22,358 nucleotides of DNA from a virus: positions 1 through 22,358 of the IMG/VR virus record IMGVR_UViG_3300042305_001754. One strand, 5' to 3'. A program made the translations under genes and the position numbers. Within the stretch, counting starts at the first letter, position 1, and each line of letters opens with the position of its first letter. Of this stretch, positions 2,416 to 22,200 are shown in pieces. The notes below the pieces were generated by a model. The model had not been told where the DNA came from, ran no database searches, and saw only the letters and a list, made by a program, of their open reading frames with translations.

Positions 2416-3444
2416 TTATGGAACATATTCACCCGAAGAAAAATATAGTCCCGTTCCAAGTGGTAATGTGTTAGGAATATGTAAGTTTGGATCTATCCAA
2501 AGAACTCTATATGTACCAGCCGGAATAGCAGCCCCTGAAGTAACAGTAACATTGGTTTGTTTTATACTATCAGGTATTAAGTCAGCACCAATATTGTATG
2601 AACAAGGGTTGGTTCCAACATTAACAGTCATTTCAGACATTGTTCCATTCATACCACCAAGTGGTAACCATATCGTATAGAAGTACTTAACAGTTGTGTT
2701 CACCAAGGAACTGTTGATATTTATAGTTCCAAATCCATATTGATTAATTGGACACCCATATGTGTCATTACCTGATGTTTGGAACATCGCGCTACTGAGT
2801 GAAGAGACTTGTGTAATAAAGTTTCCTGAACTTCCATTGGTAAATCCGCTATAGTGAGCATAATAATCCATATTGTCTGAATAATTCAAACTTCCAGGAA
2901 CACCCGAGTTACCCCAACCAAACCAAGTTTTAGCACCATCATACATATATTGACCTATAGCATTTCTTGAAGTATAATCTTGTGGTTCGGGGAATAGGTA
3001 AGCTTGATAACTGAAAGGTGTTGCACTAGGTGTAGGTGTAGGTGTTGGAGTTTGTGTTGGACTTTCTGATATACTTGGGGTGATGGTAGGTGTGGGTGTT
3101 GGACTGAGACCAATAGTAGGTGTAACTGTAGGTGTTGGAGTGAAAGACGGTGTAATAGTAGGTGTTGGAGTAACTGTGGGTGTAATTGGTGACGTTGTCG
3201 TTTCAGTAACAAGTACCACTTGTTGTTGGAAATTATCACCACATCCCTCCTCTAAGTTAACAACATAAATTTGGTATATAACTCCTGTAGGTGATCCGGG
3301 TAAATCCAAAGTCACCCCTACAATCATATCATCAAAGGTCGCAGAAGAATAAACGGGTGCCGTTATAGAGGTGTCACCTGTATAGACATCAAAAGGGCCT
3401 GTTGCGTTTGAATTGGGGGATATTCTAAGAATATATTCGGCCAT
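2416..3444 (-). CDS. Tail appendage protein with Pro/Thr linker (342 aa)
   Basis: Three parts are visible. Residues 1 to about 80 form a small domain with PFDVYTGD (17-24), resembling the whole 90-aa protein encoded just upstream. Residues 82-143 are a low-complexity Pro/Thr/Ser linker (TPTPTVTPT type). Residues 145-342 form an aromatic- and Gly-rich C-terminal domain, with YLFPEPQDYTSRN and WFGWGNSG near its start. From memory, that C-terminal type recurs in freshwater and uncultured phage genomes; its function is unknown to me. The layout suggests a base domain that docks on the virion, a flexible spacer and an exposed binding head. The gene stands alone, with 51 nt upstream containing a terminator-like hairpin and a TATTTATA motif, and 31 nt downstream before the next gene. 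No signal peptide or membrane helix is present. Confidence 0.85.
   Translation of the reverse strand: MAEYILRISPNSNATGPFDVYTGDTSITAPVYSSATFDDMIVGVTLDLPGSPTGVIYQIYVVNLEEGCGDNFQQQVVLVTETTTSPITPTVTPTPTITPSFTPTPTVTPTIGLSPTPTPTITPSISESPTQTPTPTPTPSATPFSYQAYLFPEPQDYTSRNAIGQYMYDGAKTWFGWGNSGVPGSLNYSDNMDYYAHYSGFTNGSSGNFITQVSSLSSAMFQTSGNDTYGCPINQYGFGTININSSLVNTTVKYFYTIWLPLGGMNGTMSEMTVNVGTNPCSYNIGADLIPDSIKQTNVTVTSGAAIPAGTYRVLWIDPNLHIPNTLPLGTGLYFSSGEYVP
3016..3201 (-). repeat. Pro/Thr-linker coding repeat in the 342-aa gene
   Basis: The plus strand shows an imperfect hexamer array of the type ggtgtt / ggtgta, which on the coding strand encodes alternating Pro and Thr/Ser over about 62 residues. Near-identical DNA lies in three linkers of the 1050-aa gene. 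Confidence 0.85.
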
Positions 3445-6700: not shown

Positions 6701-6922
6701 TAAATCATTAACTTGAATATAGTAAGTTCCTGCCGATAAATTAAATCGGGAAGATAGAAAATCTCCCGCCGTTGTTTGTGTATCTGACCCCAAGTTTGGT
6801 GAAACCCAATTAACTGTCATAGGCGGTGCGGATGAATTCAAAAGAAATTGAATATTACCATCGTGGGTGTTATAACAATCCGCACCTACCGTATTACTGA
6901 ATGATAATGTTGTTAATGACAT
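3770..6922 (-). CDS. SprB-repeat-like multidomain tail protein with Pro/Thr linkers (1050 aa)
   Basis: Residues 1 to about 575 hold roughly seven Ig-like modules of 70-90 aa. Several end in the pattern GTYSVxVTDxxGC (229-241, 553-564; variant at 480-492), with a Cys near the start of most modules. This is the hallmark of the SprB repeat of flavobacterial gliding adhesins. Residues 576-719 are a separate domain. From 720 on, three Cys-bearing domains alternate with Pro/Thr linkers (about 720-771, 853-878 and 950-970). The first and third of these domains (about 772-852 and 971-1050) are clear duplicates; the middle one is of a different type. There is no N-terminal signal peptide, which argues against a secreted bacterial adhesin and for a virion part. 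The start overlaps the 983-aa stop by 1 nt (TAATG). Lying after the gpI-like gene, it occupies the place of a side tail fibre and may contact host glycans. Confidence 0.87.
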   Translation of the reverse strand: MSLTTLSFSNTVGADCYNTHDGNIQFLLNSSAPPMTVNWVSPNLGSDTQTTAGDFLSSRFNLSAGTYYIQVNDLNNQSSPETVEIVVQSNFVPYITRIINTTCGGSDGSLTVNLSAGTAPYTLSLYKDGIFSSQTTTNVTSYTYYNLGAGTYFVSGSSANGCTATTSSVNILTSTTLDYGFWVVNDSNCGVHNGKLSVTGMTGTAPYNYSWTSFSPPRTTQTITGLTAGTYSVIVTDATGCATTKSQFIGTIDPLGLQTATVTSPSCFANDGQVVLVFTGGELPFYYSGSNGYSEISYSKTLTLTGLSAGELGIRVQDVGLCSFLYQTSLNTTNGFNLISLNTTNSTCSTLGGSVTAVIAGGAGPYTYTLIKPGGDTDVQTTNFTTATFSSLDNGDYTIVISNPICTYSEEFTIITQDKFSVVVLPDAETCQNMNGSIQVDISGDIQYPVQYQLYFENEIIDQSSQSSEGTYTFYNLDNGLYQVVVTDTSGCEITKNALLPNIGYLDFFIQGTNGTVGNTGSATAYITDGNGPFTFVWSNGETGQTISNLSGGTYSVTVTDRNGCSKTKSVTITSKTQVICYETYSVCESEFQITYNRKRSLFNMLNEGFYDLTNGSGIDCTLNSAIFQTDITVSGVSYTDQFYTATTLNDVPGDNTYTASISGLLDSIEGISSYTFDLLNNKVTVFSDCDGGNILENETICFSVSIDYDITCAQSAIAPTPTVTPTKTVTPTVTSTPGASPTNTSTVTQTPTITPTLTQTPTVTPTVSQTCFAHSVYLTTDPRNACFAAGTATTVYSPSAVLGAGSYVYSGSNCTLPIGNGVFIRPVTSPINQDVLQIVGTLGIAVSYNCTTPVPVSPTITPTQTKTPTPTPTKTPSVITYTCKIYDVSGARSTGTLWGYTDCGGNTQTVFVNAETSVSICAVVGSVTILNGAGTGAIQILGPLCNLPPSQTPTVTPTKTPTASPIVTPCTPHTVYISVSKTAVCDGSASTSVIYMYNTNVTAGYNAYTNSSCTTPVQVARFISPTSVPSPSTVFQVSNTSGNLISTSC
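4018..4078 (-). repeat. Third Pro/Thr-linker repeat in the 1050-aa gene
   Basis: This short hexamer-type array encodes a Pro/Thr-rich spacer (PTVTPTKTPT) between the second and third C-terminal domains. Confidence 0.75.
4288..4366 (-). repeat. Second Pro/Thr-linker repeat in the 1050-aa gene
   Basis: This array encodes about 26 residues of alternating Pro, Thr and Lys (TPTPTPTKTP) between the first and second C-terminal domains. Its DNA resembles the linker in the 342-aa gene. Confidence 0.75.
4610..4765 (-). repeat. First Pro/Thr-linker repeat in the 1050-aa gene
   Basis: The longest of the three linkers (about 52 residues) joins the N-terminal Ig-like region to the duplicated C-terminal domains. 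On the plus strand it is built from imperfect copies of gttggtgt and gtcggagttt. Confidence 0.8.
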
Positions 6923-9873
6923 TAATTGAGACTAAAAGTAAAATTGATACCTACTCTTAAATAGAATGTGTCTTGTGAAAATAACTCATAACAATTCGTA
7001 TTTGAGACGGTAAGTTCATTATTGTTTATATAATAGTTGAATCCGTAATTGTGTAAATCTGTAAGGTAAGTATTCAGAGCATTCAACCAATTTGTTGATG
7101 TTGGAGCATCTGTTGATCCATATCCCTCATAAAACTTTTCCAAAACAATTTGTTCATTTCCAATTTTTAAATCAACATACCACTCTGACACCAAAGTATC
7201 CAAGTTAACTTGTGGATATGTGTATGAGTTTGAAACTAAACAAGCATCAAGCCTATTAGTAAGAATTGAATTGAATGAATTAATTGATGATCCAACCGAC
7301 CAGGGATAAACCGAACATACTACAGTTTCATCGATACAATCTTGTGTGAAGATGTAACATTCAAGCCAGCAGTTCTTACAAGGTACAGGAATAATCTGAC
7401 AACCCCTCTGTCTTCTATAAACAAATTTTTGTCTATTGAATTGAGTATTTTCAAATCTTACGCCTCCGTTCCAAATCGTTGATGATGGAATCATCTGTTC
7501 GATCAATCTCATCCACCTATCACCAATTTGAATGGTGAAATCAATCATTTTTTGATATGTGAATTGATTTGAAGGAACTCCAACCGTACTTTGTGAGTTC
7601 AAATATTTCCAATACAAAGATTGTAAGAGAGGATATCCTGAAGTTTTACCGTCCGTATCATACCATCTATTTGGAACGTTCACCATCTTATTATAGAAGG
7701 TCTGAGCAAATTCAAAGAAAGTTTTTTGTGTCGGCTTCGGATTGATAACAAAGGGATATGGATCACCCGGATATGTTATCGTCAAACCTGTAGATGGAAT
7801 TGGATAATTGTATTGAACTGACATATTCCAAACATCATATTCCAATGGTTTGGCAACATTTAAATTCAGGTCAATATTTTTAGCATTTAAAACAAGTCTA
7901 TCATCACTTACTTGATAATACGCTTCATAACCTGGAACAATACTTCTTCTCAATCCAAGTTGTGTATCCGTCCAACTCTTTTGGTTATCGGCGATTTGTC
8001 TGAGTTGGAAGCCCATACTAATATCAGGGAACGAAGTGAAAGTATCCAAGTACTTGTATCCGTATGAAAAATTCTGATATTTTGTTACGTTCACAGGATT
8101 GGTTCCCGTATAAACCGAAGCCGCCGCGTCAACTTCCAAAGGTGATACGTGATAAGGCGTTCTATCATACCAACCAGCACCTTGTTGATAAAAGAAACTA
8201 CTGTTGTTGGTTGGTGGTTTGGGATACCCCTCATCATCAAACGGGAAATCCGATCTGTATAAGTTTACAAATTGTATCTGTGTGTCAATTGTAAATGCAC
8301 AATATTGAACACCCTGAAATTGATAAACATTCGATGTGTCATAAACAACAACTTCTTCGGCTTTTGAACCACCCGAAATTTCAGACCAATAAGTGTTAAA
8401 TCTGTCAATATTAATTGGACCATCCGCTAAATAAATCGTTTCATTAAATTCAATCATAGAGTCGGGTGCCCCGATCATTCTCAATAAAAATTCAATGGAT
8501 TTTTTTGTTCCTTTAGATTTAAAAAGGTATGCAGAGTTAAGAATTAAATTTCTATAAAATTGAAAGTTAAGTTCTGTTGGTGTGTAATCTCTCGAATATC
8601 CTGAATAAATTGGATTCTTACCTACGTTGAAAATTGAATTCAAAAAGTTTTCGTTTGTGATTTGTGAAACATCTTCACTCCATCCTAACGTTGTTGCTAA
8701 ATTGGATAAGAGTTGGGATGGTATATCACTGTTTGGAAGATTGTAGTGAACTGAATTTATGTATGCTAATCCATCAATAAATCTTTTGAGTTCATCAAAA
8801 CTTCTTCCATATATTTGTAAAACTTTTTCAACCTTTTGATCTTCCGTGTCAAAATCTTTGAAGGCTCCTGTTGTCAAAAATCTTGAAATAAGGTTGGACT
8901 TAAACCTGTCCATTTCCTCCGACAACGCATTTAATTTTTCAAGGTATTGTGTGTAGATATAAGTTCTAATATCTAAGTTCCACTGACCATCTAAAGACCA
9001 AGTCAAATATTCATTACCTGTGTAATTCTGACCATCAGATGTTTGTCTTGGAACCTTGAAAAACGCAGTATATCTCGGGGTAATTAATCTGTTTAATAAG
9101 AATTTTCCGAGTTCGTCAAAATTTTCCGAAAAAACCATTTCGGTTTTGGTGTCATTAAGACGAATAACCAAAGAATCAAAGGTGGATGTAACGCCCGAAA
9201 ATGGATTACCCTCAACGATGAAAGTTATATAACCCGAAGTTAAGTTTTGTGAAGGTGTAAAATCATTTACAGGATATTCAACACCATTTAAAAACAAAGA
9301 ATAATTTATATATGTCGCTGGTAAATTTCTATATTCCGATACCGCCTGTTCTCTTGCTGAGATATTAATCGTGGCATTTTGAGAGAAATCAATATCAAAT
9401 GGATTTTTGATCCTACCAACATTAATCTTAAATTCAGTTTCATTACCGACCGCATCATACGAAATATCATAAGCCGTATTTGCCGATGTATAATCGTAGT
9501 ATAATCCATCAACTTCTAAGGCCGCAGGAAAGAAGTTGATTACCCGTTGGATTGTCGCCGCGAACCTTTTTTGTAAAGACCCGTAAAGTGAATAATTTGT
9601 AACTTCCGATAAATCAAAGTTTGGAACAACACTAAATTCTCTAGCAAATATTTTCTTTGCTTCAGCGACACTGTTGACTTGTAAATCTTCTAAAGAAATA
9701 GGTTTGGAAAAAGATCCAACACTAAATTCTCTATTAGCTTTTTCTACTATACCTCTTGTAAATTCAAAATTACCTTGAGTTAGACCTCCCCCATCCACCA
9801 CCTGAAACCCGACCAAATTGTCCGAGAAGGTGGTGTTTCCATTAGCAGGTACTCTGTAATTTCCTGTAGCCAT
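6922..9873 (-). CDS. Baseplate protein with P2 gpI / gp7-like segment (983 aa)
   Basis: The middle of this large protein resembles the phage tail protein I family of P2, related to the N-terminal part of T4 gp7. A helical stretch at about 310-400 includes LATTLGWSED. It is followed by FQFYRNLILNSAYLFKSKGT and SIEFLLRMIGAP (438-470), the family's pattern of an R..L...A.L.KSKGT helix and a LLR..GAP end. The N-terminal 300 residues and the C-terminal part are rich in beta-type sequence. Around 825-850 lies a Cys cluster (CQIIPVPCKNCWLEC, then two more Cys) that might bind metal or form disulphides. In P2, gpI follows gpW and gpJ and links the wedge to the fibre. Here it comes after gp25- and gp6-like genes, though with five genes between. 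Both flanking junctions are 1-nt TAATG overlaps. The gpI relation is a pattern match from memory, not an alignment. Confidence 0.8.
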   Translation of the reverse strand: MATGNYRVPANGNTTFSDNLVGFQVVDGGGLTQGNFEFTRGIVEKANREFSVGSFSKPISLEDLQVNSVAEAKKIFAREFSVVPNFDLSEVTNYSLYGSLQKRFAATIQRVINFFPAALEVDGLYYDYTSANTAYDISYDAVGNETEFKINVGRIKNPFDIDFSQNATINISAREQAVSEYRNLPATYINYSLFLNGVEYPVNDFTPSQNLTSGYITFIVEGNPFSGVTSTFDSLVIRLNDTKTEMVFSENFDELGKFLLNRLITPRYTAFFKVPRQTSDGQNYTGNEYLTWSLDGQWNLDIRTYIYTQYLEKLNALSEEMDRFKSNLISRFLTTGAFKDFDTEDQKVEKVLQIYGRSFDELKRFIDGLAYINSVHYNLPNSDIPSQLLSNLATTLGWSEDVSQITNENFLNSIFNVGKNPIYSGYSRDYTPTELNFQFYRNLILNSAYLFKSKGTKKSIEFLLRMIGAPDSMIEFNETIYLADGPINIDRFNTYWSEISGGSKAEEVVVYDTSNVYQFQGVQYCAFTIDTQIQFVNLYRSDFPFDDEGYPKPPTNNSSFFYQQGAGWYDRTPYHVSPLEVDAAASVYTGTNPVNVTKYQNFSYGYKYLDTFTSFPDISMGFQLRQIADNQKSWTDTQLGLRRSIVPGYEAYYQVSDDRLVLNAKNIDLNLNVAKPLEYDVWNMSVQYNYPIPSTGLTITYPGDPYPFVINPKPTQKTFFEFAQTFYNKMVNVPNRWYDTDGKTSGYPLLQSLYWKYLNSQSTVGVPSNQFTYQKMIDFTIQIGDRWMRLIEQMIPSSTIWNGGVRFENTQFNRQKFVYRRQRGCQIIPVPCKNCWLECYIFTQDCIDETVVCSVYPWSVGSSINSFNSILTNRLDACLVSNSYTYPQVNLDTLVSEWYVDLKIGNEQIVLEKFYEGYGSTDAPTSTNWLNALNTYLTDLHNYGFNYYINNNELTVSNTNCYELFSQDTFYLRVGINFTFSLN

Positions 9874-10781
9874 TAACTAATTATTGTATTGAAGTTCTTA
9901 CTAAAATCAATATTGTCACCTCTATTCTGACGAACCTCATAAAGAAGTTCACTAAATTCGTTTCTGATTTCGAACAAGTTGTATTGTTTGTAAATATTGT
10001 TATCAGAATCATAGATTGTGTAAATACCGTCCTCAATAGATTTGGTCTGATTTCCGTAAAGAGCGAGAGCCAAGGTAGATGCGTCGTGTTCAACGAGTTC
10101 TATCTCAATAGTTTGAGGATCAAAGAAGGTATTTGTGATGATAATACTTTGATTTGGCTGTCCAATAAATGGAACGGCTGAAGGTTTGTTTGTTGGTGCC
10201 GCCGATGGTGTAAGAGTCAAAAACATAAGGTTTGAACTACCATCAACGTATCTATAACGGATCGCCTTTTCTGATGTATTTGTAAGATTGGTCACAACGG
10301 GTTCACAGAAGAAAGATGAGGTTACAATCCTAAAGAAGTTAGGAATTTTTGTTCCATCACTATTCAAATATTCAACTCTAAATCCAACCAATCCTTGATT
10401 AATAAACTTATTCCTGAATTGTTGTGGAACATTATTTAAGTCAATTACAATACCATTCACATTTGGTAATGCGGATAACACACCACAATCGGTGATCAAA
10501 GTTCTTATTTCAATTGGACGAACAACCAATGTATAAATACCTAAAGCATTGAACTCTTCGGCAGGAAGTTGTAAATTATAAAGTCCACCAATTACTTCAA
10601 TATTTGGATTTCCTCCTGTTGCTGTATTGTGAAAATACGGAGTTAGAATGGAAGGAGCATTCAACTTTTTTAAGGTGAAATTATTTGTTACATCCCTTGA
10701 TTCGGTATATAACAAAATGATCTCAACATCTTCGGGTGATACATCCGAAGGTCTTATTGTTCCGTAACTACCTAATGCCAT
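9873..10781 (-). CDS. Unrecognised baseplate/tail structural protein (302 aa)
   Basis: I do not recognise this 302-aa soluble protein. It begins MALGSYGTIRPSDVSPEDVE, then has a beta-rich segment with LPAEEFNALGIYTLVV (about 74-89) that reads like an Ig-type strand pair, and a charged C-terminus ending DNIDFSKNFN. There is no signal peptide, membrane helix or Cys cluster. The start lies inside the last codons of the 364-aa gene (14-nt overlap), preceded by AAGG four bases before the ATG, the nearest thing to a Shine-Dalgarno site among the starts I checked. Its stop overlaps the next start by 1 nt. Because it lies between wedge-type genes in a fully coupled block, a baseplate or tail-end role is the best inference. 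Confidence 0.8.
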   Translation of the reverse strand: MALGSYGTIRPSDVSPEDVEIILLYTESRDVTNNFTLKKLNAPSILTPYFHNTATGGNPNIEVIGGLYNLQLPAEEFNALGIYTLVVRPIEIRTLITDCGVLSALPNVNGIVIDLNNVPQQFRNKFINQGLVGFRVEYLNSDGTKIPNFFRIVTSSFFCEPVVTNLTNTSEKAIRYRYVDGSSNLMFLTLTPSAAPTNKPSAVPFIGQPNQSIIITNTFFDPQTIEIELVEHDASTLALALYGNQTKSIEDGIYTIYDSDNNIYKQYNLFEIRNEFSELLYEVRQNRGDNIDFSKNFNTIIS

Positions 10782-11862
10782 CCTTATTTAATTTAAAATA
10801 TTTATAACCGTATTTGGATAAGTCCCCAAGGTTGTCCACTTCACCAAGTCTTTCAAGTGATTCCAATCCTGAAGCTTTATCTCTTTCAATAAATACATTT
10901 GATTGTATTTCCGGTTGACTAACAAACCCAATTAATCTTTCATCTTTAGTTACAAGTGTTGTTTGTAAATTATTTGAGTCTAATCCACTTGAATTTATAA
11001 AGAATATCGTCTGTCCGTTGGGGTAATCGTAGTAATCCACACCTTCAATAGTATAAGAAGTATAGAGTGGATTTATAGAGTTAATCTGACCATAAACACC
11101 TGAGTTTTTTACCAAAGGTTGCCCCACCGGATATTTGTTACTTCCGTATCTACGGAGTTCATTAATTCTTGATTTTGTTTCACCCGAGATCACAAATGGT
11201 GTCGCCACAAAATTTGATGAGAATTCTGAAGACGCATTAAAGTTTGAATCTTCTGTGAAGATATATTGTGCGTTTATCGGAATACCCGACCAACTTCCTG
11301 AATTTGGAACAAAGTATATTGTTCCTGTAGGATCCGGAACAGGGGCGGGATAATAGGGTATCTGTATTGTTTTTTCAACTATAGATGTTCCCCACTGATT
11401 TTGTTGTGTTATTTTAACAACATACTTAAGATTTGTATTTGGATATGTATGACTTAAAACATCAAATGAATTTGTTGTTTCATTAAAAACAAATGTTTCA
11501 TTCGTAGTTCCATCACCCCAATCGACAACATATGGAGCATCTTTTAGAAAACTTTTGAATTCAACATCAGAAGTATTTTTTACAAATAGAACATAAGGAT
11601 TGCTTGAAAAATACATCACAAAGTTGTTTAATACATCTTTTTGCAGGATAAATCCATCAAATTCAGAATAAAAACCCAAGTCTTTTACATTCTTTGTTAA
11701 GTAAATCGGGACGGTCATTCCTGTATAATAAGAAGCTCCGTTTGTTCCTCCCGAAAGAACTTCGGTCATACCCGAATAGTAACCTATTTGTTCACCATCA
11801 TAGGTAACATCAAAAACTTTTTGTTTGATAACTTCGGGTGATATTTTGATTTTTCTAAACAT
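10768..11862 (-). CDS. Structural protein with PKD-like domain (364 aa)
   Basis: Residues about 95-168 carry a PKD-type signature: VVDWGDGTT (112-120), then SHTYPNTNLKYVVKI (137-151). This corresponds to the family's WDFGDG and HTY...G.Y.V motifs. PKD domains are beta-sandwiches that serve as spacers or protein/glycan-binding modules in Bacteroidota surface proteins and occur in some phage appendages. The N-terminal 90 residues begin MFRKIKISPEVIKQK and include two similar YYSGMT / YYTGMT segments. The C-terminal 100 residues are unassigned and end in a basic, Tyr-rich tail. It overlaps the 267-aa stop by 1 nt (TAATG) and the 302-aa start by 14 nt. At 364 aa it is close in size to T4 gp8 (334 aa), but I see no motif that supports that identity. 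Confidence 0.83.
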   Translation of the reverse strand: MFRKIKISPEVIKQKVFDVTYDGEQIGYYSGMTEVLSGGTNGASYYTGMTVPIYLTKNVKDLGFYSEFDGFILQKDVLNNFVMYFSSNPYVLFVKNTSDVEFKSFLKDAPYVVDWGDGTTNETFVFNETTNSFDVLSHTYPNTNLKYVVKITQQNQWGTSIVEKTIQIPYYPAPVPDPTGTIYFVPNSGSWSGIPINAQYIFTEDSNFNASSEFSSNFVATPFVISGETKSRINELRRYGSNKYPVGQPLVKNSGVYGQINSINPLYTSYTIEGVDYYDYPNGQTIFFINSSGLDSNNLQTTLVTKDERLIGFVSQPEIQSNVFIERDKASGLESLERLGEVDNLGDLSKYGYKYFKLNKDGIR

Positions 11863-12665
11863 TATGAATTGACATATTCATAGAATTTAATTGGACTCAT
11901 GGTAGTTCCTGCTCTAAAATCATTATTGAATGAAGATAATGTGTATGTGTACTTGTCATAATTGAGGTTAACCTTATAGAAAAAGTTATCCTCAGGATTG
12001 AAGTTTGAGTTGTTTCCTGAAATAGATGACTGTGATTTGTTCAAAAACCTGACAAACTCACCCGTCTTACCATTAAAGAATTTTGCACTCATATAAAATT
12101 CAGTTAAACCTAACACTTCAGGATCTCTTAACCAATAAATAAAATATCCTTCTTTATCACCAATAAAATCCAACTGATAATTTGGTATTCTGACCTCCAC
12201 TTCGTCACCGTTTTGTAAGGTAACCGGTTCAAACTTCCCTTGTTGGACGGGTAATATAATTGTCAAATAAACTTTTTGAGTTTCTTTGTTCTTGGAATCA
12301 TAAAGATCCAATTTAAAGAATGAATTTGTAAAAGAATTTGCATAATAATACAACTCGTCGTTGGTAAAATCGGTGGTATATGTATTTTTCCAATATGTTG
12401 CGTTATTTCCAACATTTTGTATTGGAACTGCGTTATCAAAAAAATAAAACTGATAGTTGGTGCTCGTCAGAGATAACCCATATGGTTCGTGAGAAAAACG
12501 AGCAATTTCATAATCTTTGGGTGGGTTAATAATCTCTTGAATAATTTCATCGGTATAGACATCCACCATCTGCTGACGACCATACGGATCAAACTTAACC
12601 TCCAAAGGAATTGTAAGTTTTTTGGAGATGTTATCTCGTGTTATTTTAAATTTATTGACAGTCAT
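11862..12665 (-). CDS. Unrecognised baseplate/tail structural protein (267 aa)
   Basis: I do not recognise this 267-aa protein. It starts MTVNKFKITRDNISKKLTIP and is rich in Tyr, Phe and Asn. It includes a predicted strand-rich centre (QKVYLTIILPVQQGKF, about 130-145) and a segment GYFIYWLRDPEVLGLTEFYM (174-193). There is no signal peptide or transmembrane helix. The start lies 14 nt inside the end of the 587-aa gene, and the stop overlaps the 364-aa start by 1 nt. Tight coupling to both neighbours suggests these products are made in fixed proportion and assemble together, probably in the baseplate; this is inference from position only. Confidence 0.8.
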   Translation of the reverse strand: MTVNKFKITRDNISKKLTIPLEVKFDPYGRQQMVDVYTDEIIQEIINPPKDYEIARFSHEPYGLSLTSTNYQFYFFDNAVPIQNVGNNATYWKNTYTTDFTNDELYYYANSFTNSFFKLDLYDSKNKETQKVYLTIILPVQQGKFEPVTLQNGDEVEVRIPNYQLDFIGDKEGYFIYWLRDPEVLGLTEFYMSAKFFNGKTGEFVRFLNKSQSSISGNNSNFNPEDNFFYKVNLNYDKYTYTLSSFNNDFRAGTTMSPIKFYEYVNS

Positions 12666-14415
12666 CTGACAGAGGTTGATAAATAACTTGGGTAAAGCTT
12701 TTATTTGTTCTTCCTTCAGGGATTAATTTGAATATAAAATCCCTGAATACATAGTTTGCACCGTTAGAAAATGGATAATCCACCCCGTTTCCATCTTGAT
12801 CAATAAATCCCGGATCATATAGATCCCTCCAAATCCACTTGTTATAGTTTTTGGAGTAATATGCCCAATATGGTAAGTTATCAATACCTGTTTGACCATT
12901 GAAGTTTTCAACGTAGGTTGAAAAACTTCTCAATGGAATTTCAAAGTGGGGTTTGTAATAATATCCACTCGCATTTTCAGGTGTAGAACTGGTCGGAAAT
13001 ACCGTTTCATTGAAATTTATCTTATGATAATTTTCAGAGATTACAAATTCAGTTTGAGTTAATTTATTAAACTCACAAAAATCACCAACCAAAGTGTCCG
13101 TAACACCCAAAGGTAAATTATAATAAAATACAAAGTTAGCACCTCCTCCAACATTATTACCAACACCTGTCTTTCCTGCTTTACCACCAGTTGACCCATT
13201 AGATTGTTGATACGATCCAACCCTTAAAGGTAAAACCGCATCCAAGTTTGTATCGGTCCACCACGAATTTGTTCCACCACTTGTAATATTAAAATCCCAC
13301 CCTGTCTTTAATCCACCCCTATTCTGATTTGGTATTTTTGGTTTGTTAAAATACCCCGCATACCCCTTATTAATAATCGTATAAAATAATTTTGTTACGG
13401 GGAGTCCGTTATTGTCAGTAATACCTGTGATAACAACATCTTTTGTTGAAATTAAGGAATAAGATTGAGTCGCATTTTTAATTGAAATTCTCCTTACATT
13501 GTTTGGTGTCAATGCCGCATATTCAAGTTTTTTATCAGGATTAAATCCGTTAAGTTCAAAACCTGACTTAACCACATTTATATCGTCGTTGGTTACCAAA
13601 ACTTTATGTTCACGACAATAGTAAATTGAAGTTGTTTCTTCTATATTTTGTGGATCAATAACTTTTTTAAATGTTCCAAGATCACCTTCGTTGAAGGTCG
13701 TTCCATATCCAATATCGTAAATTGCGAACTTATATATTTCACTTTCAAAGTTTCCATCACCAAGTGAATAAACAGGGAATATATTTTTTCCATTAAAAGT
13801 GACGGGTAGTAAAACATAATTTTGTTTGGTTAAATTATGTGGAACAGGACATTCAAATAAAATCAAAGGTTTACCCTGTAACTTAATTTTTTTTATCATA
13901 TAAGGAATACCAGTACTCGCCGAAAAATTCAAAACAAATCCATCACCGGCAATATATGACATTTTACTATCAACATTTTTATGTGGATAGGTAACCGCAA
14001 AAGACCAATTATAGGAATATGCCGATACGGGTTTAAAATCTACATGTGTATTTGTTGTGTCATTTCTAAAGAAATCAAATTCATAGTATTGTGGATATCC
14101 TCCCCAAGGCTGCGTTCCTTCAACAGAACTTTCAGGGTTAACATAATATAAATTATTTTTAAAAGAATTGAAATTTGTTGTTCCACTGATCGTGTTATTC
14201 ATAACAAACTGAAATTTAGAAGACAATCTATATTTCAGAGTTGAATTTCTCTCTGTGACATATTGTTCTTGAAGACTTAAAACTCGTGTTTGTTCCCCTT
14301 GAACATAATTACGAGAAGATTGATTCAGGGTTAAAGGATAGGTAAACCCATCATTAACACCCCCAACAAATTGAAAGTTGGGTGGAACAATAGATATGTT
14401 ATCGTAGGTATTCAA
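12652..14415 (-). CDS. Unrecognised baseplate/tail structural protein with TTG start (587 aa)
   Basis: I cannot name a family for this 587-aa soluble protein. It is rich in Tyr, Asn and Gly, with a flexible Gly/Asn stretch near 400-420 (GGKAGKTGVGNNVGGG) and an aromatic C-terminal segment near 500-560 (LPYWAYYSKNYNKWIWRDLY). The reading frame has no ATG before residue 72 and a TAG six codons upstream. The TTG that overlaps the TGA of the 1800-aa gene (TTGA, 4-nt overlap) is therefore the most likely start. It would be the only non-ATG start in the window, plausible where re-initiation at the upstream stop delivers ribosomes. Position between the 1800-aa gene and other coupled genes points to a baseplate part. 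Confidence 0.82.
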   Translation of the reverse strand: MNTYDNISIVPPNFQFVGGVNDGFTYPLTLNQSSRNYVQGEQTRVLSLQEQYVTERNSTLKYRLSSKFQFVMNNTISGTTNFNSFKNNLYYVNPESSVEGTQPWGGYPQYYEFDFFRNDTTNTHVDFKPVSAYSYNWSFAVTYPHKNVDSKMSYIAGDGFVLNFSASTGIPYMIKKIKLQGKPLILFECPVPHNLTKQNYVLLPVTFNGKNIFPVYSLGDGNFESEIYKFAIYDIGYGTTFNEGDLGTFKKVIDPQNIEETTSIYYCREHKVLVTNDDINVVKSGFELNGFNPDKKLEYAALTPNNVRRISIKNATQSYSLISTKDVVITGITDNNGLPVTKLFYTIINKGYAGYFNKPKIPNQNRGGLKTGWDFNITSGGTNSWWTDTNLDAVLPLRVGSYQQSNGSTGGKAGKTGVGNNVGGGANFVFYYNLPLGVTDTLVGDFCEFNKLTQTEFVISENYHKINFNETVFPTSSTPENASGYYYKPHFEIPLRSFSTYVENFNGQTGIDNLPYWAYYSKNYNKWIWRDLYDPGFIDQDGNGVDYPFSNGANYVFRDFIFKLIPEGRTNKSFTQVIYQPLSDDCQ

Positions 14416-17400
14416 TTCCCGTATTTTCTAATAAATAAATCCAAAGCTGAATTTCCGACCCTTGTTCCAAAATAAAAATGGAATGGAGCACCTATTAGGT
14501 TTCTGTTATCAGGTTCTGAGATCAGTTGTAAAGCACCAAGATCAAATCTTGGATTTCCGTTTTGATCATAAATTGCAAACAATCCTTCACCTAACTCTTG
14601 GTTGAAATAGTCTGATGTTGCATTTGTAAAATCCAAGTTTTGGTAACCATTAGCCAAAAATGGTGTTTGAGTAACCCAATTGTTTCCCTCAGATCCGAAC
14701 CAAGTGGTGGAGTTATACGGTGCACCATACTTTCTTTCCCATCTATAGAACGGAACGTGTTGAGTGTGAGGATATCCGAAATTAATGTATGGTAAAACAC
14801 CGGGTGTGACAATTTTTCTGACCGAGGTGTCACCTGTAAACATTACCGAGAATACATAATTTTGATAATTGTTTGACTCGGGGGCATTCGCAACACCGAA
14901 TTCAATTTGGTTGTAGTTATAATTGGTCCCCAAGAAGGGTTTAACTCCAAGCTCGGATTGGAAGGAAGCAAGTTGTGTAAAGTCACCATCCATCCTCTTA
15001 TCAGGTCTTGTAAAGAACTGATTAATTAAACCCTGATTGTTTGACAGAGCTCTCCAACCATTAAAGTTAATCATCCTTGAGATAACAAAGAAGTTCAAAA
15101 GATCTTCTATAGGTTGGAAAGTTGTTGTCTTGAGGTTGTTTACATTATACCCTTCAAAATCATCTGAAAAACAAACAAACTTCATAAACTCATCCTTCGG
15201 ACCCAAATCCATAATCGTGGTTGGTCTTCCGAGTTGTTTGATATTCGCACCTTGATAAAGACCATTTCCTTTTTCAGGGCCAGGTTTTCCAACAAAAGAT
15301 CCTCCAAATTGATTTTCTTGAACAACCCAAGGTGATGATCTATAATAAAAACTATTCGTTTGATCGTTAAACGCAATAAGATCCTTACAATATGAATAAT
15401 AGGGTTGGTTATCAGAGTCATAGAAGGTATTCATCTGAAAGGTGGGCATAAACAAAGTTCCGTTTACCCAATTATTAATAAAATCCAAAGAAAACACATC
15501 ACGACAAAGTGCAAATGATATGGTAAATCTTTGTCTCCACTCGTTAAAATCTTGAATGTCTTCGGCAATTTTTAAAAGTCTATTGAATAACCTATAACAA
15601 CCATTTTGAACTTCATCTGGGTTACATCCGTTTGGATTGTCTTCCTCGTCACTTATCTGTATATCACCGTTCTCATCGATATAATAGCAATCCAACTCTC
15701 TCATTCCCTCACATTGGAAAGAACGTATTAAATTTGTCATTCCTGACCAAGCTGGATCATTCGCTTCATCCATTTCCTCAATGAAATCTTCATACGCACC
15801 TGAATCACCAGCAACACCAGTTGAACCCGCAACTTGGTAAACCCCCTGTAATATAGAAGCTTCGGTCGTCAGAGTTCCCTCAGAAACACTTCCATAATTT
15901 GCAATATAGAAGTTACTATTTTGGTGTAGAGCAAATCTATTGTCATATACACTAATTGGTGATGATGAGTCAGGTAAATTTGAGTTGAAAATTAGTGTGG
16001 TCATACCCCCTTCACCATCGGAAAAAGAACCTTGCTCAGTTGTTGAGATAGGGAGACGGTCACTACGAAACACTAAACCTCGACTATTACTATATGTTAT
16101 TTCAGGTAATCCATATTGTTTATAACTATAAGACAATAACCTAGAAAGAAATGGATTTGGTGCTTTTGTGTTCGGTAAAGAACATGTATTACTATTACCG
16201 TCCCATATAGAACCTTGATTGGCATAGTAACTCGGTATGTTTATTAAAGTCGAAGACATAAATGAATTCCCTTCTATGTTAATTGGAAAATTGTTGTCTA
16301 AGAAGGTTGTAGGTTTAAATCCAAATGAATAGTTGTAGTAAAACTGATCAGGATTAGTCGGTGTGGTTGTGGGTCCTTGTGAATATAGATATCCCCCCGT
16401 CCCTAAATGACCGGGTTGTAGTATTGTCCCACTATAAACTAAACCACTACTATCTACTGTTGTAGACACATAATCTAATTCATAACTTACATTCTTACCG
16501 GCATCCAAATAAAACTGATGTAAGTTACTCGTGAATGATTCATACGGCTGAGTTGGTAACTCTCCTGACTTACCTCCACTTGGGGTATAACCCCTCAGGA
16601 AAGAATTATAAAATAAATTGTTTAAAGGGAGATTAAAATTTTGATCAAAAATATGCGGAGTTGCTGTTGTGTAACTGTATGTAGGTCCAGGAATTGGGGC
16701 AACTCCGAATGGTGGTTGATTGATAAATGTAATGTCATTCGAAGGTGTTGCTTGAATGGGTATATTCAATTTAAATTGACCTGTAACAACAGCTCCTTCC
16801 AATCCCCAACCATCTTTTCCAATAATCCTTGATAAATCATATGTTATCTCCTGTGCCGGAGTGTGAGGATCAACACCTCTAATTAAGAATGCGACCTCCA
16901 AGTTTTCCCAATCCTCAATGAATTTCAAAGGAGTTAAGAATTTTGAAACAGAACAATTACATTGTTTATTATCATTCAACCAATCAATAATATCATAATA
17001 TTCATTTTCTGCGGAATTATCACCAGGTATACTCGATGAATTTTCTTCATACCATTTGTATATTCTCAAATTGATTAATTGTTGGTGTAATAAGAATTCA
17101 TTAACAAAATTATTTTCAATTACAGGATCATCCCCAATAGTACTATTCAACTGTAATAATTCTGAAACTTTGAATTTTTTAACAACTTGAAAATATTCTA
17201 TATCGGTAGGATACTCAAAGGTATAGGTCTGATTTGGTATATTTATGTTGAAATTTGCCGAGAGTGATTCGTTATTTTGATCGTTGAAATTTGCATAATT
17301 TATTGTTTTTACCACACCAGAACCTATTGTAGGTACAAAATTAGTAGCAAATAAGTTTGGATCATTTGATTGGGTTGGATCTTGAAATACTAATAAACTT

Positions 17401-19814
17401 CCTTGGATTATTTCTTGATTTGGTTCGATCAAAATAGGTACGACATAATCATAAAACGGTTCGTTACTCGGATATTCTTGTTTGTTTACTTCTATTTTGA
17501 CCCTATTTATTCCATTCCAATCTTGATGAAAATATAGTGATCTGTTTGAAAAATAATTTAACTTTTGTGCAAAAGTCATTGAGTGAGTCCATACAATTGT
17601 GTTTGCAACTATATTAATTTCATTTTGGAGGACATCATTATCACTGAGAAACTCTTCATCCTCAAACTCAATGGTCGCGCCAATTTCTTTTTTATTATTG
17701 AATGGAGTTGGGACTCTAGCACTTTTACTAGTAATAGGATCTCCAGCCATTAAGTTTTTTATAATAGTTCCAAGTGTATTGGTATCAATATACGGTTGAT
17801 TAACGATGAGGTGAAATTCTTGATTATTCAAAACACCACCTCCTCGGTCATAAAGTTGAGAACCCGTAGAACACCCTATTTCATCAAGATTAATTAAATC
17901 ATCTATGAATTGAGTTATTTCATTTTGGTCACCATATGTGTTAGGAAAATTTAAATCAACTAAAATAGAATTACCAGAATCTAATTCACTATACTCCTCC
18001 AAAATATCACCAGGTGATTGGTCTTGCGGAGCACCATCCTCCGCTGAACAATCACATGTTGTACAGTCAGGGTATGTCAACATAGGTAATGATATTATAA
18101 TTGGTGACTCAAATGAACATTCTTCGCTTCCACATCCAGTGCAAAATCCAGGACAATTAATATTAACGTTAATTAGATCACCCACTCGTTTAAGTGCACA
18201 AATAACAAAACAAATAGAAGCAACAATGGTAAATAATATGTGACCAATATAGATCAGAATCCAAATTATAGGAGATAAAATACCCAATAATATTTGTAAC
18301 AGAAAGAAAAGAAAATCAAAATCTTTGTGACCATCATTCGTAGGAAACTTATTAACTTCAGACTCACAGGTCCTATCCAATATCTTTTTTATACCCGTAA
18401 ACTTATCCTTTACATTTGCCGACTTGTATTGATCAATCAGATTACTTACGGTATATACTTTGTTATATACCATATTATAGAAGTAATCCTGACAATTGAT
18501 TGCGATATCTTTATCAGGATAATCACCCCAACTCAAACTGAAAGAATATGACTTTTGGAATAGTATATTTTGATTTGTATTTTCATTCAAAAAGGCAGGA
18601 TCTTGACTACCACCCGAATCCCAACCGTATTCTCGGATATTCGGAACCAAAAAGTCAGCTCTCTGAAGAACATCACTAAATTTTTGATTTGTATCGTATT
18701 CAATTTTGAATCTATATTTACCCTCAGTAGGAATACCAACTGTTGGATCATTAGAAAGAACTTGTTCTCCGAATTCATTTGTAGTTACAAAATTCAAATT
18801 CATTGGAACCTCCACAAGCCAAGAGCCGTCTTCATTGATTACTCTACCACCATTTTCTAAATTAAATTGTTCAAGAACGGGATCCCCATTTTCGTCCACA
18901 CCTTCCGTTTGTCTTATGGATAGGATTCGTCCTGGTGATGTTTGACTAGCACATAAATCACCAAGTTTTGGCTTGACCTTACAAGGTTTATTTCCACTTC
19001 CTTGATCTTTGATATAGTCAGTATTGGATGAGGAGAATGTGGATCCCATAAAAACAGAATGAGGTGTTATAGTAATCCCCAAATCTCTCAAATCAAAATC
19101 CGCTCGAGCGATACCAATCTGGCATATTTCATTATTTCCCCAAAATGGACTTACATTTACACTTCTTACAAAGTTCACAATTTGCGGTAAACTTTCTAAA
19201 TCCGTGGAGCTCTTGTATCTACCACCTTCGAACTGACCTTCAGATGCTCTTCCGATTCTTATCAAATCGGATGGCGATAAAGAAAAACAACCCATATCTG
19301 ATAAGTCCAAATCCACATTCAAAGCAACTTCACCTACAGGAACCCCAACAATCATAAAGTCACCACTTTCATTTGTTTTAGTCGTAAACTTATAGTAGTT
19401 ATCATAAACCTCAATAACCTCCGATCTTGTCAAAACATCGTTTGCTGATGGAAATGATCCTGTTGCTGCGTGACCCGGATAACTTGGTTCATAAGGTAAT
19501 AGATTATACCTAAATCCGTCTTCATTTTTGGTGGATAAATCTCTATATGGGTATAGTGTTGATATTAAAGGATTTAAAGAATCAATATCAGATAGAGGTA
19601 TAAAAACTGATACTCTTGCATTTGGAACCCCATAACCTTTGTTGACAATAACTCTACCCGCAATCACACCATAGTCCGAACAATTTCGGTCATAGACATC
19701 ACTTTGTCTTAACTTTAAAGAAAGTATTTCTAAATAATCAAAATCTTGGTTGAGTTCGAGTTGAATTTGTTGATCAACACCTACTTCAGTTCTTATTCTA
19801 AAACTTTTTGACAT
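14412..19814 (-). CDS. Giant baseplate-region protein with hydrophobic hairpin and Cys cluster (1800 aa)
   Basis: This is the largest gene in the window and the head of the eight-gene block. Residues about 46-168 resemble the carboxypeptidase regulatory-like (beta-sandwich) domain: YGVIAGRVIVNKGYGVPNARVSV, split here for length only by the motif ends G53-V70, later KTNESGDFMIVGVPVGE (146-162). Residues about 498-541 form a long hydrophobic stretch (FLFFLLQILLGILSPIIW, then ILFTIVASICFVICALKR) with an SP turn, enough for two membrane helices. At once follows a Cys cluster at 554, 558, 561, 566, 584, 587 and 589. The remaining 1200 residues are soluble and aspartate/asparagine-rich, ending with FHFYFGTRVGNSALDLFIRK, a tail I recall from other Bacteroidota phage proteins. 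Being next to gp25/gp6 it is probably a baseplate component; the membrane segment could act at the host envelope. The start has no Shine-Dalgarno site but a TATTTATA motif 16 nt upstream. Confidence 0.85.
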   Translation of the reverse strand: MSKSFRIRTEVGVDQQIQLELNQDFDYLEILSLKLRQSDVYDRNCSDYGVIAGRVIVNKGYGVPNARVSVFIPLSDIDSLNPLISTLYPYRDLSTKNEDGFRYNLLPYEPSYPGHAATGSFPSANDVLTRSEVIEVYDNYYKFTTKTNESGDFMIVGVPVGEVALNVDLDLSDMGCFSLSPSDLIRIGRASEGQFEGGRYKSSTDLESLPQIVNFVRSVNVSPFWGNNEICQIGIARADFDLRDLGITITPHSVFMGSTFSSSNTDYIKDQGSGNKPCKVKPKLGDLCASQTSPGRILSIRQTEGVDENGDPVLEQFNLENGGRVINEDGSWLVEVPMNLNFVTTNEFGEQVLSNDPTVGIPTEGKYRFKIEYDTNQKFSDVLQRADFLVPNIREYGWDSGGSQDPAFLNENTNQNILFQKSYSFSLSWGDYPDKDIAINCQDYFYNMVYNKVYTVSNLIDQYKSANVKDKFTGIKKILDRTCESEVNKFPTNDGHKDFDFLFFLLQILLGILSPIIWILIYIGHILFTIVASICFVICALKRVGDLINVNINCPGFCTGCGSEECSFESPIIISLPMLTYPDCTTCDCSAEDGAPQDQSPGDILEEYSELDSGNSILVDLNFPNTYGDQNEITQFIDDLINLDEIGCSTGSQLYDRGGGVLNNQEFHLIVNQPYIDTNTLGTIIKNLMAGDPITSKSARVPTPFNNKKEIGATIEFEDEEFLSDNDVLQNEINIVANTIVWTHSMTFAQKLNYFSNRSLYFHQDWNGINRVKIEVNKQEYPSNEPFYDYVVPILIEPNQEIIQGSLLVFQDPTQSNDPNLFATNFVPTIGSGVVKTINYANFNDQNNESLSANFNINIPNQTYTFEYPTDIEYFQVVKKFKVSELLQLNSTIGDDPVIENNFVNEFLLHQQLINLRIYKWYEENSSSIPGDNSAENEYYDIIDWLNDNKQCNCSVSKFLTPLKFIEDWENLEVAFLIRGVDPHTPAQEITYDLSRIIGKDGWGLEGAVVTGQFKLNIPIQATPSNDITFINQPPFGVAPIPGPTYSYTTATPHIFDQNFNLPLNNLFYNSFLRGYTPSGGKSGELPTQPYESFTSNLHQFYLDAGKNVSYELDYVSTTVDSSGLVYSGTILQPGHLGTGGYLYSQGPTTTPTNPDQFYYNYSFGFKPTTFLDNNFPINIEGNSFMSSTLINIPSYYANQGSIWDGNSNTCSLPNTKAPNPFLSRLLSYSYKQYGLPEITYSNSRGLVFRSDRLPISTTEQGSFSDGEGGMTTLIFNSNLPDSSSPISVYDNRFALHQNSNFYIANYGSVSEGTLTTEASILQGVYQVAGSTGVAGDSGAYEDFIEEMDEANDPAWSGMTNLIRSFQCEGMRELDCYYIDENGDIQISDEEDNPNGCNPDEVQNGCYRLFNRLLKIAEDIQDFNEWRQRFTISFALCRDVFSLDFINNWVNGTLFMPTFQMNTFYDSDNQPYYSYCKDLIAFNDQTNSFYYRSSPWVVQENQFGGSFVGKPGPEKGNGLYQGANIKQLGRPTTIMDLGPKDEFMKFVCFSDDFEGYNVNNLKTTTFQPIEDLLNFFVISRMINFNGWRALSNNQGLINQFFTRPDKRMDGDFTQLASFQSELGVKPFLGTNYNYNQIEFGVANAPESNNYQNYVFSVMFTGDTSVRKIVTPGVLPYINFGYPHTQHVPFYRWERKYGAPYNSTTWFGSEGNNWVTQTPFLANGYQNLDFTNATSDYFNQELGEGLFAIYDQNGNPRFDLGALQLISEPDNRNLIGAPFHFYFGTRVGNSALDLFIRKYGN

Positions 19815-19883: not shown

Positions 19884-21722
19884 TTAGGAGATATTGACTC
19901 CTGAGAAATTTTTTGTAGATACCAAAATATCTTTACTCGGGAACCTCACTTGGCACATCTGATTTGGTTGAGCGAAGATTGTTTGATCAATCAATTGAAT
20001 TTGTTTTGTGGTCTCATCAGAATATGGTTGACTGATAGGATCTGATGAGTATTGACCACCCAACATATTAAACACATCTATTGATGTGACAGTAATGACA
20101 CCTGCAACATTTTGAATCAAACTATTGAGTTCGGCGATGAAGACATCTTGACCCATCACTCGGTTGATAGGATCCATATATGTTGAAATGGTGTTAACTA
20201 TATTTGTTATTACTTCTCCCTGATTTTGAACAGCATCCAATACAACTTGAACTTGAAACTTTAGGTCAATTACTTGTCCACTTTCAATATAAATGTAGTC
20301 ATTTATCATTCTATAGTTTGAAAGATAATTCGCCACATTTTGTTTGATGGTATTTGAAACTATCGGAGTAAGTTTTCCGTCTGCATCATAAGACAACATT
20401 TGAATTTTGATTTTGTTGTCTTCTTCAGTAATATTAACTTTTGCCGGTGCACCAAATTGTCCTGGCATCGTTTGAATCAAAGACTGATAGTCGTTGATTG
20501 TGACTGCTCTCTTTTGAGCTGCGAAGTTGAACGCTACAAAGTTTCTTGCCTCTTCCAAAGTTGGTTTGTCAGCACCTCCAACCGCAGCGACGGGGTTGGT
20601 AACCCTCAAAGATCCTTTTACTTGGTTATTGATAATGCTTGATGGTCCGTTGATTGAGAAATCAACCGTACCGACTTGTGTAATTACATTTGTTCCCAAG
20701 TTTGTTCCTTTACCACCACCCACACGATATTGAATGAATAAAGTTGTGTTTGGTTTCAGTGTTGCACCAAGAGAAAAATTGTTACTCAAGGTTTGAATAT
20801 TCGGTAAGACACCTGTATTGGAAAAACTGTTTAGAAGTTCTTGTGATGAAGTAGTACCACCTCCAAAAGTCATTTTTAAAAACCCTTCGGGTGTAAATTC
20901 AGTGATAAATCTATTGTTTGTTTGAATATATTTTCCAACCTTAACACCCGGTTTGTCACTTGGCTTTGTAGAATCTTCCACAAATACACGATCTTCAGCC
21001 AATGCGTATACCTCATACCATTTATCAGACGATGAAATAAATTCCGCGTTTGATGGTACATTTGCATAGTTTGTACCATCTTTTTGAATTACGGAAGTAA
21101 CCCCCAACACATTTCTTTCAGGTAAAAATATGTTTAAAAATGGTCTTGAATCGGCAGGTGTTACGACTTTTTTGAATACTTTTGTAATACCATTGATGAC
21201 GGGTTCTCTTTTGGTGATTGTATAGTTAATAAGGACATTGTTTGCGTCAAAGTTAGGTATTTTTGTTCGGTTATTAAAACCTTGTGTATTATATTGTGAA
21301 GAGAAATCACAATCATAAATCAATTCAAAAGTTTGACCACCACCGATTACCTGACTTCCTCTCCTTAGAACACCCAAATATCTTTCGTCTTCTTTATCAC
21401 CAAAAGCAGGAACGGTAATTGAAATATCCGCAACCGCAACTGAAGGTCTATTACCCGGAATCTTCAATCCATATGTTCTTGCAATATTGAAAACAGAAGA
21501 TTTTTGTTGAGCGTATTGTAGTACAGTTTCTTGTATACTACGGTCAATTTGATAGTTTAAGTTATCCGCAATACCCGCATTGAGATCCAATAATACTGAG
21601 AAAATGGATGCGTCATTGAAGTTATCAATAACATCGGGATAATATTGTCTAACATAATTAATGAGGTCTGATCTCACCGCCTCAAAATCCCTACTTGTAT
21701 ATGGTATTCTACTATTTGCCAT
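19884..21722 (-). CDS. gp6: Baseplate wedge protein, T4 gp6 / P2 gpJ (Baseplate J) family (612 aa)
   Basis: The N-terminus matches the gp6 pattern. A short SRDFEAVRSDLINYV helix is followed by DASIFSVLLDLNAGIADNLNYQ (positions 38-59; central residues FSVLLDLNAGIADNL), then an acidic/Gln-rich helix leading to the conserved A..YGLKIPGNRPS (about 82-94). The centre is beta-rich. The C-terminal half carries the Baseplate J signature RAVTINDYQSLI (about 415-426) and a long helical-beta region with GQDVFIAELNSLI (about 545-557). Members of this family dimerise to form the inner ring of wedges that holds the baseplate together and couples its opening to sheath contraction. 612 aa is close to T4 gp6 (660 aa). 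It starts 1 nt after the gp25-like stop (TAAAATGG). I am confident of the family. Confidence 0.93.
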   Translation of the reverse strand: MANSRIPYTSRDFEAVRSDLINYVRQYYPDVIDNFNDASIFSVLLDLNAGIADNLNYQIDRSIQETVLQYAQQKSSVFNIARTYGLKIPGNRPSVAVADISITVPAFGDKEDERYLGVLRRGSQVIGGGQTFELIYDCDFSSQYNTQGFNNRTKIPNFDANNVLINYTITKREPVINGITKVFKKVVTPADSRPFLNIFLPERNVLGVTSVIQKDGTNYANVPSNAEFISSSDKWYEVYALAEDRVFVEDSTKPSDKPGVKVGKYIQTNNRFITEFTPEGFLKMTFGGGTTSSQELLNSFSNTGVLPNIQTLSNNFSLGATLKPNTTLFIQYRVGGGKGTNLGTNVITQVGTVDFSINGPSSIINNQVKGSLRVTNPVAAVGGADKPTLEEARNFVAFNFAAQKRAVTINDYQSLIQTMPGQFGAPAKVNITEEDNKIKIQMLSYDADGKLTPIVSNTIKQNVANYLSNYRMINDYIYIESGQVIDLKFQVQVVLDAVQNQGEVITNIVNTISTYMDPINRVMGQDVFIAELNSLIQNVAGVITVTSIDVFNMLGGQYSSDPISQPYSDETTKQIQLIDQTIFAQPNQMCQVRFPSKDILVSTKNFSGVNIS

Positions 21723-21723
21723 T

Positions 21724-22200
21724 TTAGATATTAAGTATTACGAAATCTTTTGTTTCAAATGCGTCTGAGGTTATGGTGAAAGAAATTTTGACTTTCGCAG
21801 TGTATTCTTGAACACCCTGTCCGGCCGTTCTATAAATATCAAATATTTTATATTCAGGTTGGTCACTTACATATTCTCCGTTAGCAAATGTTTCAGTATC
21901 CTGCCAAAGAGGAATAATTTCAATATTGTCAATTCTCAAGTTTGGGATGTAAGTGTCCACAGCTTGTTGAATTTCTGCTCTAATAGCCCCAAATGTTGGC
22001 CCATCCAAAGGTTCAAAAATATATTCATATAACCTTGTTCCAAAATCTGGAAGAAAATATCTTGATCCCTTCCTTGTGAGAAGAAGATGGATGAGGTTGG
22101 ATCTAATTTCCTGTTCGGGAGTTTCAGTCAGCGCCAAATAGTCACCTTTGAGTGAATCTCTAAAAGGAAATGCTATACCATAAGTTTTTCCGTTTGCCAT
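21724..22200 (-). CDS. gp25: Baseplate wedge protein, T4 gp25 / P2 gpW (GPW_gp25) family (158 aa)
   Basis: The family core is clear: IRSNLIHLLLTRKGSRYFLP (32-51), DFGTRLYEYIFEPLD (52-66), then an amphipathic helix and PNLRIDNIEIIPL (about 90-102). In T4, gp25 sits where wedge, hub and sheath meet and is needed to start sheath assembly. The family is shared with type VI secretion and other contractile injection systems (TssE). At 158 aa it is slightly longer than T4 gp25 (132 aa), the surplus lying in a loop with NGEYVSDQPEYK. No Shine-Dalgarno site precedes the ATG. The TATTTATA motif is 28 nt upstream and a hairpin/T-run lies just before it, so this gene probably begins a transcript shared with the gp6-like gene. 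Confidence 0.94.
   Translation of the reverse strand: MANGKTYGIAFPFRDSLKGDYLALTETPEQEIRSNLIHLLLTRKGSRYFLPDFGTRLYEYIFEPLDGPTFGAIRAEIQQAVDTYIPNLRIDNIEIIPLWQDTETFANGEYVSDQPEYKIFDIYRTAGQGVQEYTAKVKISFTITSDAFETKDFVILNI

Follow-up and report, generated by a model that had tools for sequence, protein, structure and literature searches.

An undescribed family of phage baseplate-locus proteins with a probable membrane-active helix

A protein of 1800 aa encoded next to the baseplate wedge genes of a phage, here called X, represents an undescribed baseplate-locus family with a probable membrane-active helix. The DNA analysed (the window, 22,358 nucleotides) and its relatives were compared for locus, gene order, conservation, predicted helix, hydrophobicity and polar stripe, and from what was observed we tentatively propose, at somewhat less than an even chance, that X is a baseplate protein whose shielded helix would insert into a host envelope membrane on opening of the baseplate, where it would anchor the baseplate or line the opening. 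The 22.4-kb window is an IMG/VR-type virus record whose minus strand encodes gp25, gp6/Baseplate_J and then X:

21724..22200, minus strand: gp25 / gpW-like baseplate protein (PF04965, E 2.6e-11; PHROG baseplate wedge)
19884..21722, minus strand: gp6 / Baseplate_J-like baseplate wedge protein, directly upstream of X (PHROG baseplate wedge, E 5e-18; PF04865)
14412..19814, minus strand: X, baseplate-locus protein with a hydrophobic helix, 1800 aa (open reading frame call; relatives at the equivalent post-gp6 site)
6922..14415, minus strand: baseplate/tail genes downstream of X, encoding 587, 267, 364, 302 and 983 aa, their order kept in relatives

Beyond the 983-aa gene lie genes for a 1050-aa Hoc-like protein and for fibre-like proteins. 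The 1050-aa protein (3770-6922) has Hoc-like/Ig-type repeats, 30 cysteines and Thr/Pro-rich linkers and is adjoined by TPTPTP-rich proteins (2416-3444), and a fibre-like protein consisting mostly of GTSGSSGSS repeats (2-706) is truncated at the window edge. The 983-aa protein (6922-9873) carries a TKGTxxSIxxLLxxxGxP-type motif that recurs in proteins of 1265-1400 aa encoded after gp6 in three other phage records: Flavobacterium phage immuto, Microcystis phage Mel-JY01 and LR756508. These post-gp6 proteins were considered as counterparts of X and rejected on inspection, as none has a hydrophobic segment and it is the window's 983-aa protein that shares their TKGTxxSI motif. The STKG of T4 gp7 bears a faint likeness to this motif, and BLAST of the 983-aa protein against gp7 was not significant.

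About 250 loci, spanning three deep clades (A, B and C), were compared, and nearly all show the order gp25-gp6-X; each of 12 longer records has X as a single copy. A place in the tail operon is by itself no proof of a virion location, and X might instead act outside the virion, as an assembly factor or a membrane protein made late in infection; we regard this as very improbable in view of the near-invariant gene order and single copy, and of the huge size, adhesin-like beta-sandwiches and hypervariable middle of X, which would be typical of surface-exposed virion proteins.

Searches with X returned little. Neither X, a 1685-aa relative nor two distant members matched any of 50,697 annotated phage records by tblastn; no Pfam model reached its cut-off with X, and the PDB, searched by sequence profile, gave no match to X. 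PHROG likewise had no match for X; of four distant members, three gave none and the fourth an insignificant one (E 0.039). UniProt contains one homologue, A0A8S5LA66 of Myoviridae sp. ctPuP5, an uncharacterised protein (35% identity across 550 columns; Foldseek E 8.6e-50), whose record describes neither a function nor the helix. No description of X was found in the open-licence literature. Tail-tip proteins with a membrane-active segment are, as a kind, already known.

The layout of X, as assembled from alignment and structure prediction, is as follows:

19062..19688, minus strand: first predicted prealbumin/carboxypeptidase-regulatory-like beta-sandwich, X aa 43-251 (AlphaFold model; VIA-align Z 5-6 to transthyretin/CarboxypepD-like domains; sub-cut-off PF13620)
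18441..19058, minus strand: second predicted beta-sandwich of similar kind, X aa 253-458 (AlphaFold model; VIA-align)
18336..18395, minus strand: anchor GIK...C483...NKFPTN, X aa 474-493, directly before the helix (P491 in 117/119, N493 in 116/119, K476 in 116/119; C483 in 34/34 of clade A)
18171..18314, minus strand: 48-residue hydrophobic helix, X aa 501-548 (KD, family alignment, AlphaFold model, periodicity)
18117..18155, minus strand: lineage-specific C554, C558, C561 and C566, X aa 554-566 (11, 5, 5 and 12 of 34)
18048..18065, minus strand: clade-wide C-x2-C-x-C motif (YPDCTTCDC), X aa 584-589 (34/34 of clade A)
15915..18017, minus strand: highly variable middle, X aa 600-1300 (25-72% identity between the window and L003; flanks 90-100%)
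14412..15719, minus strand: conserved C-terminal region, X aa 1366-1800 plus stop, with an NxWxNG motif and C1368, C1376, C1406 and C1437

X aa 498-548 is the sole strong membrane-type segment in the window: Kyte-Doolittle hydropathy (KD, averaged over 19 residues) peaks at 2.54 within residues 498-545, against at most 1.61 in every other window protein. An earlier note on this DNA had described a hydrophobic run from D498 (18323) ended by LKR at 541-543, a cysteine cluster reaching C589 (18048) and more than 1200 residues beyond the cluster; translation bears out these positions exactly, with 1211 residues after C589. The same note had read the run as a membrane hairpin split by an SP turn. 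AlphaFold2 with the 119-sequence alignment (mean pLDDT 83.4; the model covers the part of X before its C-terminal 1200 residues) instead gave one continuous helix, 501-548, at pLDDT of about 85-91. A poor model (pLDDT 45), built from an alignment of only 34 close relatives, showed the same helix. Because the modelled helix is uninterrupted, the hairpin is unsupported; the mid-segment proline is confined to clade A (28/34, versus 0/63 and 0/18 in the other two clades), and the SP-turn hairpin was thus ruled out as a family trait.

The hydrophobic segment is retained by close relatives of X (65-100%) and far beyond them. With gp6 as bait, 80 loci were recovered, and on long-enough contigs the post-gp6 gene always encoded an X homologue with a hydrophobic stretch at about aa 500. 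A genome scan added the distant members L092-L095, with which scans of viral contigs yielded more, on contigs of up to 412 kb. In the resulting 119-sequence alignment, where K476, N488, P491 and N493 are near-invariant (112-117 of 119), a segment with KD of at least 1.6 lies within 75 aa after P-x-N in all 116 fairly scorable members, and the roughly 490 residues before it contain no comparable hydrophobic segment in any of the 119 aligned relatives. Homologues lacking the hydrophobicity, to which the earlier note had looked for evidence against its reading, are absent among the 116. A non-redundant tally found the segment, right after the near-invariant P-x-N, in 145 of 145 gp6-adjacent X proteins and in three further X at contig edges. 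Four relatives without it (L092, L094, L095 and L261) were considered as a sign that the helix is dispensable at the gp6 locus, which was rejected because all four lie away from gp6. Short X-like proteins of 730-770 aa without the helix (L178/L271/L261, L092 and L094, one cut by a contig end) occur elsewhere in tail gene clusters, and a search with the short form L094 gave no additional relatives.

The best 21-mer of the segment averages KD 2.3-2.5 in each of the three clades; some clade B members are less hydrophobic (KD down to 1.6) and carry about five charged residues in the segment. When each clade is analysed on its own, the hydropathy spectrum peaks at exactly 100 degrees (permutation p≤0.0002), and one helix face forms a weakly polar stripe of N, G, S, T, H or Q, as in GFINGILNIINGLIT of clade C. 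The circumference is otherwise mostly hydrophobic in clades A and C. Relatives share roughly half as much identity in the helix as in X aa 1-470 (helix identity computed without gaps, so that indels may inflate the divergence), and hydrophobic-to-hydrophobic exchanges account for 47-59% of substitutions in the helix versus 20-23% elsewhere. Between the window and L008, synonymous/nonsynonymous codon differences number 161/34 in aa 1-470 and 12/24 in aa 498-548 (p=8e-9), and some members of clade A have a longer stretch between their fixed flanks, grown from about 50 to 180 aa by added hydrophobic segments. To judge from these comparisons, the pattern suits a helix in which hydrophobicity is constrained and specific contacts are not, and for this reason we prefer lipid contact to a buried core helix. 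The level of hydrophobicity, the polar stripe, the basic C-flank described below, the relaxed sequence under constrained hydrophobicity and the extra segments together favour lipid contact, short of proof.

The chief competing explanation, which we consider somewhat unlikely, is a buried structural helix, six or more copies of which would bundle or pack on baseplate proteins away from lipid and serve in assembly or triggering. The small polar residues of clade C recur at strict heptad-like intervals (GFINGILNIINGLIT), which along with the 100-degree periodicity would suit helix-helix packing; the strict tie of the helix to the gp6-adjacent locus is what an assembly contact would show, and T4 gp7 is a virion wedge protein with a TM-like stretch. 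Against such packing stand the mostly hydrophobic circumference in clades A and C, and the fast change with hydrophobicity alone kept, together with the growth from about 50 to 180 aa, is unsuited to precise packing. Some observations count against membrane insertion: the polar stripe equally fits a buried or bundled helix; the 48-residue helix (about 72 Å if straight) exceeds one bilayer crossing; and some clade B members combine lower hydrophobicity with charges. The earlier note had suggested structure prediction as a means of recognising an ordinary buried core helix; no such helix appears in the predicted fold, a monomer model that is silent on burial in the assembled baseplate.

All three clades have a basic C-flank after the helix (K+R 2.4-2.7 versus D+E 0.7-0.9 per 15 aa, against a background of K+R 1.4-1.7 and D+E 1.9-2.1 per 15 aa). 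This resembles a cytosol-facing flank, and X has no signal peptide and is synthesised in the cytoplasm, all of which would agree with a helix that holds baseplates at the host inner membrane while they are being built and has no part in infection. The thylakoid contractile injection system moreover shows baseplate-like complexes anchored to a membrane from inside (PMC8894136). Such an assembly-time anchor would need a hairpin, because both long flanks would stay cytosolic, whereas the model is a continuous helix and two clades lack the proline break; mature virions would also have to pull the helix out of lipid. We consider it decidedly unlikely, and continue with insertion during infection as the preferred reading.

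The seven Cys in 36 residues after the helix are present exactly as the earlier note had listed them, a clustering reached in 1 of 5000 shuffles of X. Comparison divides them: within clade A, C584, C587 and C589 are found in 34/34 members, whereas C554 (11/34), C558 (5/34), C561 (5/34) and C566 (12/34) are poorly kept, and a seven-Cys metal site was accordingly rejected as a family trait. In the 119-sequence alignment, 79 relatives have Cys at position 584 and 84 have it at position 589, and in clades other than A the Cys-rich stretches that follow the helix are spaced differently. The invariant clade A cysteines C483, C584, C587 and C589 flank the helix on both sides and may act as a metal clamp or form a disulfide. 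Of the earlier membrane-helix reading as a whole, a family-wide segment with membrane-type features in a baseplate module stands, while the hairpin and the conserved seven-Cys cluster have to be given up.

For the two predicted N-terminal beta-sandwiches (aa 43-251 and aa 253-458), VIA-align Z scores of 5-6 over 80-112 residues are middling, PF13620 scored 15.7 bits against X, below the Pfam cut-off of 32.3, and the Foldseek lists for X consist mostly of generic beta-sandwich proteins uninformative on function. The pattern in the variable middle (15915-18017 of the window, compared with L003 4004-9319) would fit a part of X that faces the surface or a receptor and is diversifying or recombining.

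The bS21 gene was detected above cut-off in 4 of 8 X-carrying records (236-321 kb), a count that excludes the 22-kb window record. According to the searched passages of Chen et al. 2022 (PMC9723584), in which X is unmentioned, bS21 is encoded by large phages of freshwater Bacteroidetes. Two of the four genome-scan matches sit in Bacteroidota or Cytophagales MAGs. From the bS21 genes and these MAG matches, the host of the X phages is probably Bacteroidota, which applies to the group rather than to the window's own record.

Taken together, we propose that X is a core baseplate-module protein of large contractile-tailed phages, probably on Bacteroidota, in which two N-terminal beta-sandwiches lead through the anchor (GIK...C...P-x-N) to a hydrophobic helix of 40-50 residues and then to the cysteine site. 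X would be carried in the virion, where its helix would be shielded by other baseplate parts or by copies packed along the weakly polar face. Rearrangement of the baseplate at the cell surface would expose the helices, which could then insert into a host envelope membrane and there anchor the baseplate and/or line an opening for the tube or DNA. A bolder version, which we think unlikely, makes X a new class of contractile-tail baseplate protein with a stored membrane-penetrating helix: copies would insert into the outer or inner Bacteroidota membrane as a collar or pore that is anchored there, its N/G stripe turned inward, and the envelope would be breached by a protein-lined opening together with tube puncture. 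How large contractile Bacteroidota phages breach the envelope is little known, and the helix of X offers a single testable element; if the proposal is true, stored membrane-active segments extend from short-tailed phages to contractile baseplates.

Known systems offer partial parallels. The earlier note had called a membrane segment in a virion-region protein unusual, which is too strong: T4 gp7, the wedge protein next to gp6 in a baseplate of solved structure, has a TM-like segment of 31 aa (aa 878-908, KD 2.07; L256:5061-8159), annotated in its record as a 'predicted integral membrane domain'. The segment of X is nevertheless real and family-defining. Like X, gp7 comes after gp6 in gene order, is very large and has one TM-like segment, and so provides a precedent for the helix of X; since gp7 is a component of an aqueous virion, it also shows that TM-like segments need not enter lipid. 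The gp7 segment differs in lying near the C-terminus, and hhalign of X profile A5 with T4 gp7 (probability 0.2%, E 0.32) rules out X as a gp7 homologue.

In the thylakoid-anchored contractile injection system of Anabaena, Cis12 and Cis13 tie a phage-tail-like baseplate to the membrane (PMC8894136). Both are baseplate components adjoining the gp6 homologue (Cis11), much as X is encoded beside gp6, and Cis13 reaches the membrane through a predicted TM helix (PMC8894136). The likeness drawn here is one of description. The Cis13 helix is C-terminal, whereas that of X occupies aa 501-548 of 1800, and Cis13 is a fibre-like trimer that enters the membrane of the producing cell itself. T6SS effectors carry shielded TMDs (PMC7773334); the prePAAR effectors resemble X, as we propose it, in bearing membrane-inserting segments on a contractile machine, Eag-shielded and soluble before delivery (PMC7773334). 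They differ in being spike effectors with N-terminal TMDs and a dedicated chaperone, for which no candidate was identified for X.

The nearest functional precedent is phi29 gp9, whose hydrophobic loops come out of the tail knob and form a helix barrel to penetrate the membrane (PMC6542822). The phages differ, phi29 having a short non-contractile tail and a Gram-positive host, and gp9 is a different protein. In indirect comparisons the X profiles matched no PDB sequence, and gp9 was not among the Foldseek matches. The X helix is also longer than the gp9 segment and is followed by a Cys site, and its release is a proposal only. Both are nonetheless proteins of the tail tip, gp9 by description and X by our proposal, and the long hydrophobic stretch within the otherwise soluble X is a trait in common with the gp9 kind, for which storage of the hydrophobic segment in the virion, and its conversion to a helix barrel with a hydrophobic outside, have been proposed (PMC6542822).
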